DNA of 64,000 nucleotides from the NCBI GenBank assembly GCA_944325835.1, contig CALVBO010000002.1, positions 124,001 through 188,000 on the forward strand, in the 5' to 3' direction. This document shows positions 4,906-61,640 of this stretch, piece after piece. The stretch is from Candidatus Gastranaerophilales bacterium (GTDB lineage Bacteria; Cyanobacteriota; Vampirovibrionia; Gastranaerophilales; Gastranaerophilaceae). The position numbers and the translations under genes are program-made. Numbering within the stretch: the first letter of the stretch is position 1; each line of letters starts with the position of its first letter. Below the pieces are notes generated by a model. That model searched no databases. It had not been told where the DNA came from and was given only the letters and a program-made list of their open reading frames with translations.

Positions 4906-5184
4906 GTCTGGGTGGCAAAATAATCGTTGAAAATTTAATATAAATATTATGTCTGGGTGGCACTCTGCCGAGAAAAACGATTAAGTATCGTTTTTCGAGA
5001 GGGTGCGAAAGCACTTCCGCCACCGTGGATGCTAAAACAATCGTTGAAAACTTAATATAAACATTATGTCTGGGTGGCACTCTGCCGAGAAAAACGATTA
5101 AGTATCGTTTTTCGAGAGGGTGCGAAAGCACTTCCGCCACCGTGGATGCTAAAACAATCGTTGAAAACTTAATATAAACATTAT
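4906..5184 (+). repeat. tRNA-Leu 5'-end duplications carrying a hairpin module
   Basis: The first 11 nt of tRNA-Leu (GTCTGGGTGGC) occur at 4906, 4951 and 5068 before the intact gene at 5185. The 117-bp units 4951-5067 and 5068-5184 are identical. Each holds the tRNA 5' end, then the module ACTCTGCCGA-hairpin-CGAGAGG, a GTGC-GAAA-GCAC hairpin, TTCCGCCACC (reverse complement of tRNA nt 7-16) and an AT-rich promoter-like stretch ending TATAAA plus 6 nt. GGTGGC and GCCACC would close a three-way junction in RNA or extruded DNA. Confidence 0.9.
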
Positions 5185-5266
5185 GTCTGGGTGGCGGAAT
5201 TGGTAGACGCGCACGATTCAGGTTCGTGTGGAGAGATCCTTGAGGGTTCAAACCCCTTCCCGGACA
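5185..5266 (+). tRNA. tRNA-Leu (CAG)
   Basis: The 82-nt gene folds with a 7-bp acceptor stem (GTCTGGG with CCCGGAC, discriminator A), a D arm, and an anticodon arm CACGA-TTCAGGT-TCGTG giving anticodon CAG. It also has a variable arm and a T arm with TTCAAAC. CCA is not encoded. It is the only complete copy after three partial 5' copies. Its proximal promoter is TATAAA ending 6 nt before the first base. Confidence 0.93.
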
Positions 5267-5274
5267 TTTTTTAT

Positions 5275-5620
5275 GCCCGAGAAAGACTCGGCTGAGCCGT
5301 AGTCATATTTGCAACAAACGCTAACATAAGCATATAAACACAATGGAGAAACCACTCAATGCCGAGTCTTTTGAGTGGCACTCTGCCGAGCAAAACAATC
5401 CAGTGAATTGTTTTGCGAGAGGTAGACAGCACTCTGCCGAACAAACGATTGAGTATCGTTTGTGAGAGGTAAGCAGGTTGACCTGCGTTACCCCGCCTGA
5501 CAAATCAAAGATTAGAAACGGCGGTGATATTATGCTCGCCTGCTCCCCTCGTTCCCACGAGGTGACACTGCGAGCATCGGCTTACGCTTTGAGCAGGGCA
5601 AGCAGGCGACGAAGAACTGC
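5275..5620 (-). mobile_element. Long composite repeat element (class II)
   Basis: Reading the minus strand, the 346-bp element starts GCAGTTCTTCG (5620) and ends CTTTCTCGGGC (5275). It contains a CGCCTGCT/AGCAGGCG hairpin, a CCGCC/GGCGG hairpin, and two tandem ACTCTGCCGA modules at about 5380 and 5430. The 7-mer TTTTTAT occurs on both flanks (5268-5274 and 5621-5627), as expected of a target duplication. It sits between tRNA-Leu and the 3' end of the gamma-CA gene. No protein gene of its own is visible. Confidence 0.8.
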
Positions 5621-5629
5621 TTTTTATAT

Positions 5630-15191: not shown

Positions 15192-15209
15192 ACTGCTCCT
15201 TTCAATAAA

Positions 15210-15320
15210 GCAGTTCTCCGCCGCACCGCCTCGCTGAACCGCGAGCCGTTAGCGGCTGCGCTGTCTAATACGCCACTCAAAAGACTCGCTCACGTTCCTT
15301 ATCGCGAGTCTTTCTCGGAC
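15210..15320 (+). mobile_element. Short repeat element (class I, 111 bp)
   Basis: Starts GCAGTTCTCCG and ends CTTTCTCGGAC. It carries the AGCCG-TTAG-CGGCT hairpin and the outer GACTCGC/GCGAGTC stem, but lacks the inner GAGTTGC hairpin of the 146-148 bp copies. AATAAA flanks the left and AGTAAA the right side. It lies in the 333-bp gap between the 64-aa gene and the small HTH gene. Confidence 0.8.
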
Positions 15321-15423
15321 AGTAAATTTTGTTAAACTTTTCTCCATTAATACATCATATTTATGAGTATTTATTCATAATATTAACATATATTCAAAGA
15401 TATGTCAATATAATACTGAAATG

Positions 15424-26310: not shown

Positions 26311-26336
26311 ATTAAGACCTCGAAAACTTTAATAAA

Positions 26337-26484
26337 GCAGTTCTCCGCCACTTCCGCCCCGCTGAACCGCGGGTCGCGCGTGGCTACGCTGTCTAATACG
26401 CCACTCAAAAGTTTCGCTTGCGTGAGCGGGAGTTGCTACGCAACTCATTCACGCCACGTTCCTTATCGCGAAACTTTCTCGGAC
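26337..26484 (+). mobile_element. Repeat element (class I, 148 bp) with compensatory stem changes
   Basis: Starts GCAGTTCTCCG and ends CTTTCTCGGAC. The outer stem reads GTTTCGC/GCGAAAC where other copies read GACTCGC/GCGAGTC, so both arms changed together. The inner arms GCGTGA/TCACGC and GAGTTGC/GCAACTC are intact. Flanks are AATAAA and AATTAAA. It lies just upstream of the GTG start of the HAD gene, on the opposite strand. Confidence 0.82.
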
Positions 26485-26563
26485 AATTAAAACAATATAA
26501 AATCAAACAAACACCATTGTCAATTAAATTTTTACGATTAGTGTAACATTTTATTAACACCTC

Positions 26564-27241: not shown

Positions 27242-28587
27242 ATGAAACGACGCGAATTTATTATAAACTCTGCGCTTGCAATAGGCGGTACCGCCCTATT
27301 AACCGGCTGCGGGGAGAAAAAAATTATTTTATCCGAAAAACCAGATTGCAAAACGCAAATATAAAGATATAGAAGTTCCGTTGCTGGGGCTTGGCTGTAT
27401 GCGGCTTCCGATGAAAGGTGATGAAGTCGATATGCAGGAACTCGAAAGAATGGTCGAATACTGCATGCAGCACGGTGCAAACTACTTTGATACCGCATAT
27501 ATGTACGTTGACGGGAAATCCGAAACCGCTGTCGGCAAAGTGTTAAAAAATTATAACAGAAAAGACCTTATCATTGCGGATAAAAGCCCTGCGATGTATA
27601 TAAAATCAAAAGATGATGTCAGAAGAATTTTTGAAGAGCAGCTGAATAAAGCAGTTCTCCGCCGCACCGCCTCGCTGAACCGCGAGCCGTTAGCGGCTGC
27701 GCTGTCTAATACGCCACTCAAAAGACTCGCTTGCGTGAGCGGGAGTTGCTTCGCAACTCATTCACGCCACGTTCCTTATCGCGAGTCTTTCTCGGACAAA
27801 AAAATGCCAGACAGATTATTTTGACTTCTATATGGTTCATAATATTAATAAAAATACAATAGATAACTATCGTAATTATGATATGTTTAATCAGTTAATG
27901 GAGTTTAAAAAAGAAGGCCGCGTCAAATATGTAGGATTTTCGTTCCACGGAACACCTGATATGCTTAAAGAAGTTGCCCCTGAACACCCGTGGGATTTTG
28001 CCCAGCTCCAGATTAACTATCTTGACTGGGATGTTGTTAAGGCAAAAGAACAGTATGATATCGTTCAATCACACAATATTCCTGTAACGGTTATGGAACC
28101 GCTGCGCGGCGGCGGGCTGGTTAATTTGAGTGAAAAAGCGCTCGCGAAATTAAAAGAATACTATCCTGACACCACCCCTGCGGCTTTCGGCTTAAGGTGG
28201 GCTGCCAGCAGGAAAAATGTTATCACAGTATTAAGCGGAATGAGCAATCTGCAGCAGGTTAAAGAAAACATCCAGACTTTTATCAACTATAAAGATATGG
28301 ATGAAAAAGAAAATCTTGCAGCAAAAGAAGTTGCAAAAGTTATCCAATCACAGGGTGAAATCAATTGTACAGCATGCAAATACTGTATGGAAGTTTGTCC
28401 GAGAGGTATAAATATTCCGGCGATATTTTCCTTGTATAATCAATATAAGACCACAGGGAATAAAATGCTTTTCTCCATTTACTACAACACGCTGGATGAA
28501 AGAGAAAGAGCTGATAAGTGTATAGCCTGCAATTTGTGTAATACGAACTGCCCGCAGGCGCTGCGGCATTCTGGGCATTTAAAAAAA
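27242..28587 (+). pseudogene. Tat-exported aldo/keto reductase with Fe-S domain, disrupted
   Basis: The gene starts MKRREFIINSALAIGG (twin-arginine signal, then LTGC lipobox) behind AGGAGG. It then shifts frame near an A7 tract (27317-27323); removing one A restores KRKYKDIEVPLLGLGCMRLP. The reductase continues to EEQLNK, where a 147-bp repeat element is inserted at 27651. It resumes as CQTDYFDFYMVHNINKN and ends with two Cys clusters (CTACKYCMEVCP and CIACNLCNTNCP). A second element follows directly at 28588. With both lesions no full-length enzyme can be made. The parent family are periplasmic NAD(P)H-type oxidoreductases with ferredoxin tails. Confidence 0.85.
27651..27797 (+). mobile_element. 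Repeat element (class I, 147 bp) inserted in aldo/keto reductase gene
   Basis: GCAGTTCTCCG...CTTTCTCGGAC, with all stems seen in the 26337 and 59247 copies. The interrupted codons are recognisable on both sides: AATAAA before, and AAAAAAA-TGCCAGACAGAT after. The reading frame stays open through the element for 49 codons, then is shifted by one on exit. Confidence 0.9.
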
Positions 28588-28913
28588 GCAGTTCTCCGTC
28601 GCCTGCTTGCCCTGCTCAAAGCGTAAGCCGATGCTCGCAGTGTCACCTCGTGGGAACGAGGGGAGCAGGCGAGCATAATATCACCGCCGTTTCTAATCTT
28701 TGATTTGTCAGGCGGGGTAACGCAGGTCAACCTGCTTACCTCTCACAAACGATACTCAATCGTTTGTTCGGCAGAGTGCTGTCTACCTCTCGCAAAACAA
28801 TTCACTGGATTGTTTTGCTCGGCAGAGTGCCACTCAAAAGACTCGCTTGCGTAAGCGGGAGTTGCTCCGTAACTCATTCACGACACGTTCCTTATTGCGA
28901 GTCTTTCTCGTAC
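28588..28913 (+). mobile_element. Composite repeat element (class II, 326 bp) between two broken genes
   Basis: Starts GCAGTTCTCCG, has the CGCCTGCT/AGCAGGCG and CCGCC/GGCGG hairpins, and two inverted modules (TCGGCAGAGT at about 28768 and 28820). It then carries the GAGTTGC-type 3' half and ends CTTTCTCGTAC. Runs of 7 and 6 A flank it. The left half is like the 5275 and 43247 copies and the right half like the class I copies. Confidence 0.85.
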
Positions 28914-33205: not shown

Positions 33206-33264
33206 AATACCTATTGATTTTTTTTAGATTTTTGATGTAGAATAGAAGTATAAATAAAATTTAT

Positions 33265-33378
33265 CGGAATGTAGCACTCTGCCGACGAGAACGATTAAGT
33301 ATCGTTCGAGGAGAGGTGGGAGCGCTCTGCGAAGCAGGCGCTACCAAGCTGCAAATAACAATTGAATATAAAATTTAT
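33265..33378 (+). repeat. tRNA-Pro 5'-end duplication carrying the hairpin module
   Basis: The first 11 nt of tRNA-Pro (CGGAATGTAGC, 33265-33275) run straight into ACTCTGCCGA, the hairpin GAACGAT/ATCGTTC and GAGAGG. A second hairpin CTGC-GAA-GCAG follows, then GCGCTACCAAGCTGC, the reverse complement of nt 11-25 of the same tRNA. A promoter-like TATAAA plus 6 nt then leads into the intact tRNA. GTAGC and GCTAC would close the structure. Confidence 0.88.
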
Positions 33379-33452: not shown

Positions 33453-33458
33453 TTTTTT

Positions 33459-33468
33459 GTCCGAGAAA
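33459..33468 (-). repeat. Remnant of repeat-element 3' terminus
   Basis: Minus strand TTTCTCGGAC lies directly after the stop of the histidine kinase gene, the same placement as the remnant at 1793. Confidence 0.4.
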
Positions 33469-42554: not shown

Positions 42555-42580
42555 AAAAGGCGGTCATCAGACCGCCTTTT
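42554..42580. terminator. Bidirectional terminator between XRE gene and higA
   Basis: AAAAA-GGCGGTC-atca-GACCGCC-TTTT. A-run and T-run flank a perfect 7-bp GC stem, serving both convergent genes. Confidence 0.9.
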
Positions 42581-42884
42581 AAGCTATTTTAAGGGTTAAC
42601 CCCAGCTCTTTCAAAATCTTTGCGAGTGTCGTAATTTTGGGTTCTTTCTTGCCTTTGACAATATTATAAAGTCCCATTTTGCTCAAATCGACCTTCTTTG
42701 CAAAACCCTGCATAGTACCGCGGGCCTTAATGACAAGTTCCAGCGAACGGTAAAATACGTTAAAATTGCCGTCCTCTAAGTATTCCTCAAAGGCGTACGC
42801 CAGATATTCTTTGAGCTTTTCTTCCGTGTCAAATATCTCACAAAAGCCATCTTCAAAAGATATTGAATTTTTATATTCACTCAT
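42579..42884 (-). CDS. higA: HigA-type antitoxin
   Basis: The 101-residue protein has an HTH near residues 57-90 (GTMQGFAKKVDLSKMGLYNIV, KKEPKITTLAKILKEL). The N-terminal EYLAYAFEEYLEDGN is typical of addiction-module antidotes paired with HigB/Gp49 toxins. It follows the toxin gene with an 8-bp overlap, the usual higBA order. It would neutralise the toxin and repress the operon. Confidence 0.85.
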   Translation of the reverse strand: MSEYKNSISFEDGFCEIFDTEEKLKEYLAYAFEEYLEDGNFNVFYRSLELVIKARGTMQGFAKKVDLSKMGLYNIVKGKKEPKITTLAKILKELGLTLKIA

Positions 42885-43200
42885 TATTTTGCCTCCAAAT
42901 TTCTAAGTATTCTCTTGCCTTTTCTATATCTCTGCCTTGCAGTTTTTTATCCCCGGCATTTAGTAATAATACAATAACATCACCGACTTCTGAATAATAA
43001 ATTCTATAACCGCTTCCGAAATTAAAACGTAATTCTGAAATTTTATCATCTAATTTCTTGAAGTCACCGAAATTATCATCCTCGGCAATTCGTGTAAGCC
43101 TGCCATTAATCCTTCTGCTAATAGAAACATCCAGACCTTTTAACCATTCAATTACGGGAGCTTTACCATTTACGTGTTTATAATATTTCAGTTCCTTCAT
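42877..43200 (-). CDS. higB: HigB/RelE-type toxin (Gp49-like)
   Basis: The 107-residue protein has KYYKHVNGKAPVIEWLKGL at the start, then KKLDDKISELRFNFGSGYRIYY and GDKKLQGRDIEKAREYLE at the end. These are the core of phage-derived Gp49-like/HigB RNase toxins. I start it at ATG 43200, since TATCAT is 6 nt upstream with a perfect TTGACA 17 bp further. A longer frame upstream runs through the repeat element and is spurious. The element lies 46 bp upstream. Confidence 0.87.
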   Translation of the reverse strand: MKELKYYKHVNGKAPVIEWLKGLDVSISRRINGRLTRIAEDDNFGDFKKLDDKISELRFNFGSGYRIYYSEVGDVIVLLLNAGDKKLQGRDIEKAREYLEIWRQNNE

Positions 43201-43206
43201 ATCAGC

Positions 43207-43235
43207 ATGATAAACTAAAGTGTACCTTTTGTCAA
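43207..43235 (-). promoter_or_regulatory. Promoter of higBA (leaderless)
   Basis: Minus strand TTGACA (consensus), 17 bp, TATCAT (43207-43212), 6 nt, ATG. The -35 box lies 12 bp from the edge of the repeat element. Confidence 0.8.
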
Positions 43236-43246
43236 GGCGATATAAA

Positions 43247-43564
43247 GCAGTTCTCCGTCGCCTGCTTGCCCTGCTCAAAGCGTAAGCCGATGCTCGCGGT
43301 GTCACCTCGTGGGAACGAGGGGAGCAGGCGAGCATAATATCTCCGCCGTTTCTAATCTTTGATTTGTCAGGCGGGATAACGCAGGTCAACCCGCTTTCCT
43401 CTCACAAAACAGTTCACTGGACTGTTTTTCTCGGCAGAGTGCTGCCTAATACGCCACTCAAAAGACTCGGCCACTGAGTGGCTACCCCATTTGGTTCATA
43501 CGCTTTAGGTAGCGATTGACACAATTATGGCTCCGGCTCAGCCGGGCGCGAGTCTTTCTCGGAC
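43247..43564 (+). mobile_element. Long repeat element (class II, 318 bp) with 7-bp target duplication
   Basis: Starts GCAGTTCTCCG and ends CTTTCTCGGAC, bounded by ATATAAA on both sides (43240-43246 and 43565-43571). It carries the CGCCTGCT/AGCAGGCG hairpin, one inverted module (TCGGCAGAGT) and a middle part unlike other copies (ACTCGGCCACTGAGTGG and CGGCTCAGCCG). It fills most of the gap between higB and sepF. No coding gene inside. Confidence 0.87.
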
Positions 43565-43574
43565 ATATAAAAAT

Positions 43575-54867: not shown

Positions 54868-56030
54868 AGCGTTTAACACATTGTGCTGATATATCACCGG
54901 TTTCATCTTTGAACACAGAACCCATTACACCTGCATTACCGTTAAGTTGTATAATTCTGTTTGCACTGCCGGGTGAGGAGCTTGTATAAAACTGCATTGT
55001 AGATATATTGGGAATAAATTTTTTGTTAACCCACAATGAAATTGCTTCCTCCTTATTTGGCAGCCTTGCATCGTCCTGTTCACGGCAAAATTTCACAGCA
55101 TCATCATAATAACCGGTTTTAGTTTGATAAACAGGCATCGGGCTGACAACATTTGAGTCAAAAGAATACAACGCCGTTATAAAACCAACATCTTTACCTA
55201 CAGTATTCGGCCCTTTAGAACCGTTAAGGTCATAGATAAAATTTGCACAAATCAAAGGCGAAACAATATATGCCGTAAGCCTTTCTTCTGCCCCGCGGCA
55301 AGAAGGATTGTAGTAGACGACCAAACTTTCGCCGTTCTGTGTTTCAAACGCAGCCGCTTTGGCATTAATCATAGAATGCGAATCTAATGACAGACCGGCA
55401 TAAGAAGCATTAATCATTTTGGAATTTAATTCTAACCAATCAAGCGGCAGGTCGACCGCAGAACCGGTTGTATTAATGCTGCTTACAATACCGCAATCCT
55501 CAAGGTGGTCACTGTCACAAATATTATTAATCTTAAGCACCTTAGCCAGACCATCTGTGATAAAAGTTTCAGCAGCAGTGTCCACTGCATCACTTGCGCC
55601 GGAGGAACTGTCTTCCGTCAGTGTTCCGTAGCCGTTAAGTGAAGGCATAAGCGCGATTGCCTGTGAAAATCTTGCATAAAGAGCTTTTCTTTGCGTGTTC
55701 CAGGTGCGCTCGTTAATGTTTCCCGTCAGTGACGGAAGCGTTATCGCCGCCACCACGCCGATTATCGTGAGGGATAATAATATTTCTGCCATGGTAAATG
55801 CTATTCGACGTCCGTGAGCCCGTAAACCAATTATGGCTCTCGACTCAGTCGGTGTCATTCCGAACTTGTTTCGGAATCTGTCCGGCGACACCGGTAGTTC
55901 GCAACACTGGTCAGATGCTGAAACGAGTTCAGCATGACATGGGGAACTTACGACCTCAACTCCTAATTGGGCGGATAAAGCCGGCCCCCCCCCCCCCCGT
56001 GCAAATTGTTACATTCCTCTGTTTTTTCAT
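54866..56030 (-). CDS. Prepilin-like protein with poly-G leader (frame OFF as sequenced)
   Basis: The body has a prepilin helix FTMAEILLSLTIIGVV, a conserved LNGSKGPNTVGKDVGFI segment and a C-terminus QCVKR, like the 60.6-kb paralogue. The only start with a ribosome site is ATG 56030 (AAAGGA 7 nt upstream); its leader MKKQRNVTICT enters a G14 tract. G13 would read straight into the prepilin frame. G14 stops after about 14 further codons at TGA. An internal GTG at 55891 opens the body but lacks a Shine-Dalgarno site. The leader also contains a dispersed palindromic repeat (55853-55939). Probably a phase-variable surface or pilus-associated protein. Confidence 0.8.
55853..55939 (-). repeat. Dispersed palindromic repeat inside prepilin leader
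   Basis: Contains CATGCTGAACTCGTTTCAGC and ATTCCGAAACAAGTTCGGAA, both self-complementary, joined by a variable centre. It reads in frame with the prepilin body (CHAELVSASD...DRFRNKFGMT). The 15424-15511 repeat is related. Confidence 0.7.
55985..55998 (-). repeat. G14 homopolymer tract
   Basis: Fourteen consecutive G on the coding strand, 32 nt after the leader ATG. Such runs mutate by slipped-strand mispairing and switch the reading frame. Confidence 0.9.
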
Positions 56031-58757: not shown

Positions 58758-59245
58758 TGTATATTACCCCGGTCAATAACGTTATATATTTTCGTGCTAA
58801 AACTACCGATGAGGACAGGGACAAGAAAAAAGTTACACCTCAAGACGCCGCGGTAGCAACCGGTGCTGCCGGCGCAACAGGTTCTGCAATAGCGAGCAAA
58901 GGAACATTTAAATCGTTTTCACAGGCAAACAAAAAACTTAATACGACCGCTAAAAATCTTAAAACCGGACTTGAAACCGCAACAGATGTTTCAAAAAAAG
59001 CTCACGGAATACTCGGTAAATTCAAAGCCAACTGCCTGCATTTTAAAGAAAAATTTATAGATTTCGGCAAAGGCGTTTCAAACTCAAACCTTCTGAAACC
59101 AATTCTTGAAAGTAAGGCCTACAAAGGTGCCGCAACCGTTGCCGGCGGCGCAACAGCAGGCATCGTTGCGATCTCCGGAATAGGCGAAATGTTCAATACT
59201 TTCGCTAAAAAAGCCCAACAGTTTACAACAGACGCTGATGAATAA
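58757..59245 (+). CDS. Unknown protein with IYFRAK motif (162 aa)
   Basis: Starts MYITPVNNVIYFRAKTTDED, again with the short N-terminal motif. It has Ala/Gly/Thr-rich segments (ATGAAGATGSAIASKG; GAATVAGGATAGIVAISG) that may be membrane-active, between Lys-rich regions. It is translationally coupled to the 264-aa gene. A repeat element begins within 2 bp of its stop codon. Function unknown. Confidence 0.77.
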   Translation: MYITPVNNVIYFRAKTTDEDRDKKKVTPQDAAVATGAAGATGSAIASKGTFKSFSQANKKLNTTAKNLKTGLETATDVSKKAHGILGKFKANCLHFKEKFIDFGKGVSNSNLLKPILESKAYKGAATVAGGATAGIVAISGIGEMFNTFAKKAQQFTTDADE

Positions 59246-59246
59246 A

Positions 59247-59392
59247 GCAGTTCTCCGCCGCACCGCCTCGCTGAACCGCGAGCCGTAGCGGCTGCGCTGT
59301 CTAATACGCCGCTCAAAAGACTCGCTTGCGTGAACGGGTGTTGCTACGCAACTTATTCACACAACGTTCCTTATCGCGAGTCTTTCTCGGAC
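59247..59392 (+). mobile_element. Repeat element (class I, 146 bp) after 162-aa gene
   Basis: GCAGTTCTCCG...CTTTCTCGGAC with all class I stems. The inner stem changes (GCGTGA to GCGTGAA, TCACGC to TTCACAC) weaken it compared with other copies. Left flank AATAAA includes the stop codon of the 162-aa gene; right flank AATTAA. Its last bases (CGGACA) lie 17 bp before the TAAAAT box of folP. Confidence 0.85.
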
Positions 59393-59422
59393 AATTAAGA
59401 CTTTTTATGCTAAAATTCTTTT

Positions 59423-60574: not shown

Positions 60575-61640
60575 TTAACGTTTGACGCACCGCACCGCGA
60601 GGTTGTCAATAGTCATGTGGTTCATAACCCCTACTGAGAACTTGACATACCACGCTTCATCAATGGAAGATGATAAAGAAGATGACCAGTACCTATCCTG
60701 TGTCATATTACCGATTAAATTTTTATTGATGAACAAAGCCCCCAGTTCTTCTTTTGACGGCATCCGGTAGTCGCTATCCTGATTTTTACAAATACCGCTT
60801 ACATCATCCATCGCAACAGCCGTTGATGCATCATTAGGCTGTGGATACGGTGCAACTATCAAACTGTCCGTCGGATAAAATACCGTAATAACACCCATAT
60901 CTTTGCCTATTGTATTTGGGCCCTTGTTGCCATTTAAATCATAAAGGAAATTAGCACACATTTTCTTCTGCACATAGATATAATTCGGCTCGGCTAAAAG
61001 CGTTGTACAGCGCGGATTATAATAAAGTGCAATACTTTCGCCGTTTGCAGTTTCAAATGCGGCGGCTTTGGAATTAATCTGCGAATAAGAATGCATACCA
61101 CCAGAACCGGAAGTCCAAACTACAGATACCGAGGTATTCAAAGGATTTAACGCTTCAAGGTCAATCGGGAAATCCATCTGGCTGCCTGCAAGAGTCGTAA
61201 CTTTTTCCGGCAAACCGCAGTCATCGAGGTGTTCATTATCACAAATATTATTAATTTTTAAAACCTTTGATAATCCGCCGGTCAAGAAAGTTTCCGCGAC
61301 ATTATCCACACCGTCGCCGGCGCCGGGAGATGATTCCTCCTGCAGCGTACCATAACCGTTTAAAGAATCCATTAACGGTATTGCCTGTGACAAGCGGGCA
61401 TAAAGCGCTTTTCTCTGCGTGTTCCAAGTGCGTTCGTTTATGTTGCCGGTAAGTGACGGAAGCGTTATCGCTGCAACCACACCGATTATCGTGAGGGATA
61501 ATAAGATTTCTGCCATTGTGAATGCTAAATTCTTGCTCGGATTCAATTGTGGAAGTCGCTCAGCGGCCGACTCCTCAATTGTGCCTGTTAAGAGAGGCCC
61601 CCCCCCCCCCTGATAAAATCCTTACATTTCGATTTTTCAT
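60575..61640 (-). CDS. Prepilin-like protein with poly-G leader and DUF1566-like end (frame OFF)
   Basis: The body has FTMAEILLSLTIIGVV, then NINERTWNTQRKALYARLSQAI, GPNTIGKDMGVI and a DUF1566-like end RYWSSSLSSSIDEAWYVKF...VRCVKR. The start with a ribosome site is ATG 61640 (AAAGGA 8 nt upstream). Its leader MKNRNVRILS enters G13. G12 would continue as GGGG-PLLTGTIEESAAERLPQ into the prepilin; G13 stops at TGA seven codons after the tract. An internal TTG at 61546 lacks a ribosome site. Close paralogue of the 54.9-kb gene. Confidence 0.8.
61598..61610 (-). repeat. G13 homopolymer tract
   Basis: Thirteen consecutive G on the coding strand, 30 nt after the leader ATG, in the same position as the G14 tract of the paralogue. 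Confidence 0.9.

Follow-up and report, generated by a model that had tools for sequence, protein, structure and literature searches.

The window analyzed here is a 64,000-nucleotide stretch from the genome of a Candidatus Gastranaerophilales gut bacterium (designated G000; a 1.95 Mb assembly in 44 contigs). At positions 43247–43564 it contains the plus-strand 318-bp core of a repeat element in its long form, which begins with GCAGTTCTCCG, ends with CTTTCTCGGAC, and folds into terminal hairpins on its minus strand. The sequence-only reading had described exact ATATAAA flanks, and the copy indeed lies between 7-bp direct repeats of that sequence (43240–43246 and 43565–43571), which places it in the duplicated class discussed below. 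An internal hairpin module (CCTCTC-stem-CTCGGCAGAGTGC; 43398–43442, plus), which also occurs alone elsewhere, is followed by the right-end hairpin region (CACTC...CTCGGAC; 43455–43564, plus). The loop of this region is longer here; in other copies, the stem of the short-loop version covaries (42 short-loop forms). As also reported earlier, no gene lies within the core at 43247–43564. A TTG-started reading frame of 170 amino acids (42877–43389, minus) merely extends into it from outside. The left end of the copy adjoins a Gp49-like gene paired with an HTH antidote-type gene (42579–43206, minus), likely a toxin-antitoxin pair; the stretch with this pair is absent from the related genome G003. 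A clean empty site is lacking for this copy: the counterpart of the 43247 site in G002 is occupied, with ATATAAA repeats there too, and in G003, G004, and G006 the left flank lacks conservation. At nearly this position, G004 contains a separate copy (L288, contig C9) that likewise immediately precedes the GGCGGTC hairpin and the sepF-like gene; its AACAAAA repeats are offset by one base. The site before the GGCGGTC hairpin and sepF-like gene is a possible insertion hot spot.

Further copies are scattered through the window. Directly after a tRNA gene (5185–5266) lies a 346-bp minus-strand copy (5275–5620) that has the same 7 bp on each side, as had been noted: ATAAAAA (TTTTTAT on the complementary strand) occupies 5268–5274 and 5621–5627. 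Plus-strand copies with cores of 111 bp (15204–15321), 148 bp (26331–26485), 147 bp (27645–27798), and 146 bp (59241–59393) carry AATAAA on the left and A on the right. The plus-strand copy at 28588–28913 (326-bp core) has the right end CTCGTAC and A-tract flanks that match at 6/7 positions. Two fragments were also found: a right-end remnant, GCGAGCCTTTCTCGGACA, without a left end (1791–1810, plus) and the right-end motif TTTCTCGGACA, which adjoins a tRNA and has no visible left end (33458–33468, minus). The internal hairpin module (GGCACTCTGCCGAG-stem-CGAGAGG) is solitary at 4909–5195 and 33254–33316 of the window and near 1700–1760 of locus L147. In its solitary form it builds a 117-bp tandem repeat beside a tRNA, lies near a second tRNA, and is present in another genus (G011). 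Elsewhere in the window, two stretches that are 76% similar contain tracts of 13–14 C (55983–56024 and 61596–61637) and could be phase-variable sites; they lie near a 300-bp duplicated segment (55490–55789 and 61214–61513, 77%). Among Rfam families, only tRNAs reached the gathering thresholds in the window, and weak, chance-level matches alone were obtained around the element; a group II intron or other Rfam RNA was ruled out as its identity because it matches no described RNA family.

Our findings support the view that the element constitutes a gene-less, non-autonomous family with about 90 dispersed copies in G000. A whole-genome search located the exact left end in 88 places (0 for a reversed-pattern control) and the right end TTTCTCGGACA in 89. 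Comparison of the ends by eye agrees with the earlier description of GCAGTTCTCCG and CTTTCTCGGAC as conserved termini that are not inverted repeats. Core lengths range from 51 to 328 bp in 73 copies with strict ends, with common sizes of 110–113, 146–147, and 176 bp, and internal hairpin modules are gained or lost between copies. The copies are mainly intergenic; 17/95 are located inside predicted reading frames of 100 amino acids or more. Gastranaerophilales are non-photosynthetic relatives of cyanobacteria, and the named relatives that carry the element are Candidatus Gastranaerophilales and Ca. Gastranaerophilus. The element is present in all 7 genomes of the genus and has a match in 9/59 genomes searched. 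A match in Pseudoalteromonas, outside the lineage, was regarded as fortuitous and was not used when empty sites were compared. A covariance model of the right-end hairpin matches 13/97 family genomes in 7 genera, and the sister elements read in other genera keep this hairpin and have a different left end, which starts near TAATCTAGTGTCGC. The exact left-end pattern is absent from viral contigs, and no head-to-tail, tandem, or circle-type junction occurs in 356 loci. Several G000 contigs (C10, C15, C16, C21, C24, C28, C31, and C38) start or end inside a copy, indicating that the element breaks the assembly. In searches of the open-access journal literature on mobile or repeat elements of Gastranaerophilales and Melainabacteria, no description of it was seen.

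Analysis of the junctions revealed that most copies lack a target duplication. Copies were assigned to junction classes if AA preceded GCAG and the right end was within one mismatch. This yielded 169 copies (82 from G000 and 87 from G002, orthologous copies being counted twice), 135 of which carry the fixed hexamer AATAAA at the left flank. All 73 strict copies have a left flank ending in AAA, mostly as AATAAA, and in 72/73 the first base of the right flank is A. The similarity between left and right flanks does not exceed that of shuffled pairs, either in these 73 strict right-end copies (2 exact 7-mers, 0.46 expected) or in the 135 AATAAA copies (2 exact 7-bp repeats, 1.64 expected), and exact 7-bp repeats occur in only 11/169 copies overall. 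Alleles of G000 and G002 were then compared. The junction was spanned in 34 pairs; 18 were flagged as clean, including two artefacts (C6:2771 and its G002 counterpart, both occupied), and the other 16 have gaps near the junction or an ambiguous placement. In clean pairs, the empty allele equals the filled one minus AATAAA-core-A, without duplication and point differences aside. Clean examples are C4:46275 (100% identity over 400 bp), C36:3230 (99.75%), C4:57992 (99.5%), and C2:201012 (97.5%); at C17:13143 (100%) the placement is ambiguous because the surroundings are A-rich. The absence of AATAAA and A from empty sites explains why flanks of the strict copies match only at chance level. Permutation and empty sites together rule out target duplication for the family as a whole, and AATAAA is likewise ruled out as a pre-existing target sequence because the empty sites do not contain it. 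The sequence-only reading had taken the near-matching AATAAA-type flanks of other copies for target duplications and a clean duplication for the hallmark of the element; neither interpretation survives, since those flanks match at the shuffled level, the hexamer is missing from empty sites, and the 135/169 copies that carry it represent duplication-free insertions.

These allele pairs also bear on whether the repeat moves at all. An immobile structural repeat, disseminated through homologous recombination or retained for a terminator function, would suit copies that form hairpins, lie mainly between genes, and fall inside reading frames in the proportion given above. It is, however, extremely improbable: it is contradicted by precise presence and absence at alleles up to 100% identical, by identical ends within unrelated flanks, and by an insertion into a gene with target duplication (C20:21560, described below). 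The family is a real, recently active, gene-less mobile element.

The hexamer differs between species. G000 and G002 have AATAAA, TTAAAA predominates in G001, G003, and G006, and GTAAAA is frequent in G005. G000 has a second hexamer, GATAAA (8 copies), found partly on copies with the left end GCAGTTCTTCG. Only the AAA adjoining GCAG is nearly constant among these hexamers, and their distribution suggests that the hexamer is inherited by lineage. Inspection by eye revealed no internal change, as a candidate guide sequence, that accompanies the variation between species. The target of the 135 AATAAA copies is AT-rich on one side only; positions t1–t5 are mostly A or T, and the other side is weakly biased.

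A minority of copies does carry target duplications. Among the 34 copies without AATAAA, 9 have an exact 7-bp repeat (0.64 expected; reached in 0 of 3,000 shuffles), and these rows correspond to 7 loci because G000/G002 orthologues count twice. The loci include 43247 and 5275 of the window. Because this minority class lies far above chance, the duplication at 43247 is real as a class of which the copy is a member. One duplicated locus is confirmed by empty alleles. At C20:21560, where the element interrupts an NFACT-family gene and GGCGAAA is duplicated, the empty alleles of G004 and G006 contain GGCGAAA once and that of G002 contains a one-base variant; the joined allele can be aligned to each of these three without a gap, and alignment to the more distant G001 and G003 alleles shows small gaps. 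In the comparison of empty sites in related genomes, which had been proposed as a check on the duplication, single-copy empty alleles bear it out at this locus, and the hexamer class shows no duplication. All repeats of the duplicated class end in AAA, the letters that precede GCAG in copies, although this ending is partly built in because copy calling required AA before GCAG.

Whichever junction type is considered, exactly 7 bp are gained in addition to the core; this points to a single mechanism. It could be argued that a cut-and-paste transposase generates the 7-bp duplications while a second, unrelated process amplifies the AATAAA copies. The excess of exact duplications outside the AATAAA class and the single-copy alleles at the NFACT-family gene are what such a division would produce. 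We nevertheless consider it quite unlikely, because terminal inverted repeats are lacking and because shared core ends and 7 added bp in both classes would be an improbable coincidence.

The orientation of the copies follows GC skew rather than the direction of neighboring genes. Plus-strand copies lie at negative local GC skew in 38/42 cases and minus-strand copies at positive skew in 41/53 (Fisher p 1.9e-11), with skew calculated from fetched stretches that cover 328 kb of the 1.95 Mb and used as a proxy, the replication origin being unmapped. Gene direction has little influence: 74/170 neighbors share the orientation of the copy, logistic regression gives coefficients of -1.6 (skew) and 0.07 (genes), and the skew effect persists within each gene-strand stratum. 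The leading strand is usually G-rich. Because orientation follows GC skew, the minus strand of the element presumably corresponds to the lagging-strand template; with GC skew as proxy, insertion is biased to that template. The minus strand also folds better than its complement in 159/175 distinct copies, including all 64 short ones (DNA parameters). Terminal hairpins are present at both ends of this presumed active strand, and in the one printed example the hairpins have their feet exactly on the terminal bases of the core. In the right-end stem, 98.6% of cells are paired and 59 double changes are seen, compared with 14.7 in shuffles; no slid register approaches the true pairing score. The sequence-only reading had overlooked the existence of two junction types, the orientation relative to the replication strand, and the hairpins at the ends, all of which tell more about the mechanism than the flanks of one copy.

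The combination of hexamer class, one-sided AT-rich target, strand bias, and terminal hairpins fits single-strand transposition into the lagging-strand template. A search for Y1 transposases with PF01797 up to E = 10 found none in 5/7 genus genomes (G000, G001, G003, G005, and G006), and in G004 it returned only a sub-threshold, degraded fragment with two stops. G002 has a single RAYT-like Y1 gene, which is interrupted by a 113-bp copy of the element (L143 2300–2872, contig C23) and flanked by GTAG-type REP hairpins (GTAGGTTGGGC...). This gene was ruled out as the parent, since an element copy lies inside it and it has REPs of its own. In a set of 60 family genomes, Y1_Tnp is not more frequent where the right-end hairpin occurs (3/9) than where it does not (20/51). 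The copies read include no longer relative with a gene between both ends. The check proposed earlier, a search for a larger relative that shares both ends and encodes a transposase or reverse transcriptase, thus turned up no parent. About 90 dispersed copies, presence and absence between close relatives, and the lack of both an internal gene and a parent agree with the original description of a non-autonomous element whose mobilizing enzyme was not found. A multicopy autonomous parent may have been lost in assembly, as the genomes are drafts and several contigs end inside copies. No gene is recurrently located beside copies in the genus (1,293 reading frames), where only shared ancestral neighbors, abundant families, and element-derived frames recur; one small helix-turn-helix family is recurrently near copies in three genomes.

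Tyrosine recombinases were also considered. Tn916 and CTnDOT integrate via a coupling sequence. By analogy, a tyrosine recombinase could form a circle in which the element ends are split by a 7-bp donor spacer; insertion would exchange spacer and target, and mismatch repair would occasionally produce a full duplication. Such a scheme accounts for the 7 bp added at both junction types, for duplicated and hexamer classes in the same register, and for a species-specific hexamer inherited by lineage, as a passively carried donor flank would be. Moreover, each of 12 genomes searched has 2–10 tyrosine recombinase matches, several of about 190 amino acids. The scheme predicts a mirror product, however, with AAATAAA to the right of the core and the target to its left, and none was noticed by eye among the 34 non-canonical copies. 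It does not predict the replication-strand bias, no conserved recombinase is recurrently beside copies, and similar genes exist in G007 and G013, both of which lack an element match. We regard this route as unlikely; nothing links any of the recombinases in the 12 genomes to the element, and they were set aside as its mover.

A reverse transcriptase of about 400 amino acids is encoded in each of the 7 genus genomes. This raises the possibility of RNA-templated insertion, in which a minus-strand RNA ending in UUUAUU would be reverse-transcribed from nascent 3' ends of the lagging strand. The RNA would finish with a hairpin and a U-rich tail, and duplications that end in AAA are compatible with UUU priming. 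Several observations make this very unlikely. The reverse transcriptase adjoins a bAvd gene, as in diversity-generating retroelements; G011 has a sister element and no RVT_1 match; and core ends in the clean empty-site pairs are intact and not 5'-truncated, although intact ends were a condition of entry. The bAvd-like gene followed by the reverse transcriptase gene at L310 425–2466 (G000, contig C9), and at loci L306–L312 in relatives, looks like a diversity-generating retroelement by its gene content. In G006, an element copy lies between the two genes. The reverse transcriptase was rejected as the mover: all 7 genus genomes have it, but it is of the avd-linked retroelement type and nothing ties it to the element.

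The most probable reading, to which we assign about even chances, is that the element is mobilized at the replication fork as a folded single strand, much like IS200/IS605 elements and REPs. Against this reading stand the failure to find an intact Y1 transposase in the genus, the exact 7-bp duplications, hexamer variation unaccompanied by any internal change noticed by eye, and the lack of head-to-tail junctions in the 356 loci. IS608 and ISDra2 target the lagging-strand template, and hairpins are their recognition sites (PMC6006769). In our model, the active (minus) strand unit would be 5'-T-GTCCGAG(hairpin)...(hairpin)CTGC-TTTATT-3'. An HUH-like enzyme would cut 6 nt past the foot of one hairpin and 1 nt ahead of the foot of the other, and the single-stranded intermediate would be inserted into the lagging-strand template on the 3' side of an AT-rich hexamer (approximately TTTAAT). 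In the hexamer of the unit itself, near-constancy would be confined to the TTT adjoining CTGC, and the three letters that follow would be carried passively by lineage (AATAAA, GATAAA, TTAAAA, or GTAAAA when read on the plus strand). Because plain single-strand exchange does not predict 7-bp duplications, the duplicated class calls for a further step. Possibly, the element's TTT end anneals to AAA in the target; extension by replication would then copy the target hexamer and give rise to the 7-bp duplication.

Known systems resemble the element in part. Palindrome-associated transposable elements are non-autonomous derivatives of IS200/IS605. The element shares with such derivatives the lack of terminal inverted repeats, hairpins near both ends, orientation relative to the replication strand, precise duplication-free insertion in most copies, and a one-sided AT-rich target. 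It differs in that no intact Y1 transposase was found in its genus, its hexamer is not strictly fixed, a minority of copies has 7-bp duplications, and its hairpins are very near the presumed cut points. Membership in IS200/IS605 is not proven because no intact Y1 gene was found in the 7 genus genomes. Like REPs, BIMEs, and REPINs, the element consists of high-copy, mainly intergenic hairpins that are often paired, but it is longer (51–328 bp) and a defined unit with two different ends. Its plus-strand termini, GCAGTTCTCCG and CTTTCTCGGAC, bear no GTAG tag at either end, unlike RAYT-mobilized REPs, and the GTAG-type REPs beside the RAYT gene in G002 are separate from it. It resembles Tn916 and CTnDOT integration via coupling sequences in the few donor-derived bases at one junction and in its AT-rich targets, but it is tiny and gene-less, with a one-sided product and a replication-strand bias. 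MITEs of DDE transposons are likewise small, gene-less, and abundant, and some copies share their 7-bp target duplications; terminal inverted repeats are missing here, however, most copies are unduplicated, and there is no duplication of constant length. Integron cassettes and attC sites are linked to the lagging strand. The element has in common with them a folded single strand and an orientation relative to replication, yet no attC-like ends were noticed and its target crossover point needs no fixed base.

How small hairpin repeats spread when no transposase is known for them is an old puzzle; one example is the CGTC-tagged REPs, which are described as apparently lacking a dedicated transposase (PMC3733652). 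In having no associated transposase, the element resembles them. Tentatively, and with considerable doubt, we suggest that it may represent an undescribed transposition chemistry. A gene-less element with two hairpins would enter the lagging-strand template via a 7-bp overlap, and this overlap would either be replaced by the donor-inherited hexamer plus one base or be restored as a target duplication, by means of an enzyme that is neither a recognizable Y1 transposase nor borne by the element. As no intact, recognizable Y1 gene is present, the enzyme question is directly testable. The occurrence of two junction types in one family is a warning against calling target duplications from a single copy. 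This genus combines numerous copies, paired alleles with as much as 100% identity, and a strong strand bias, and its exact junctions allow the chemistry of insertion to be read.
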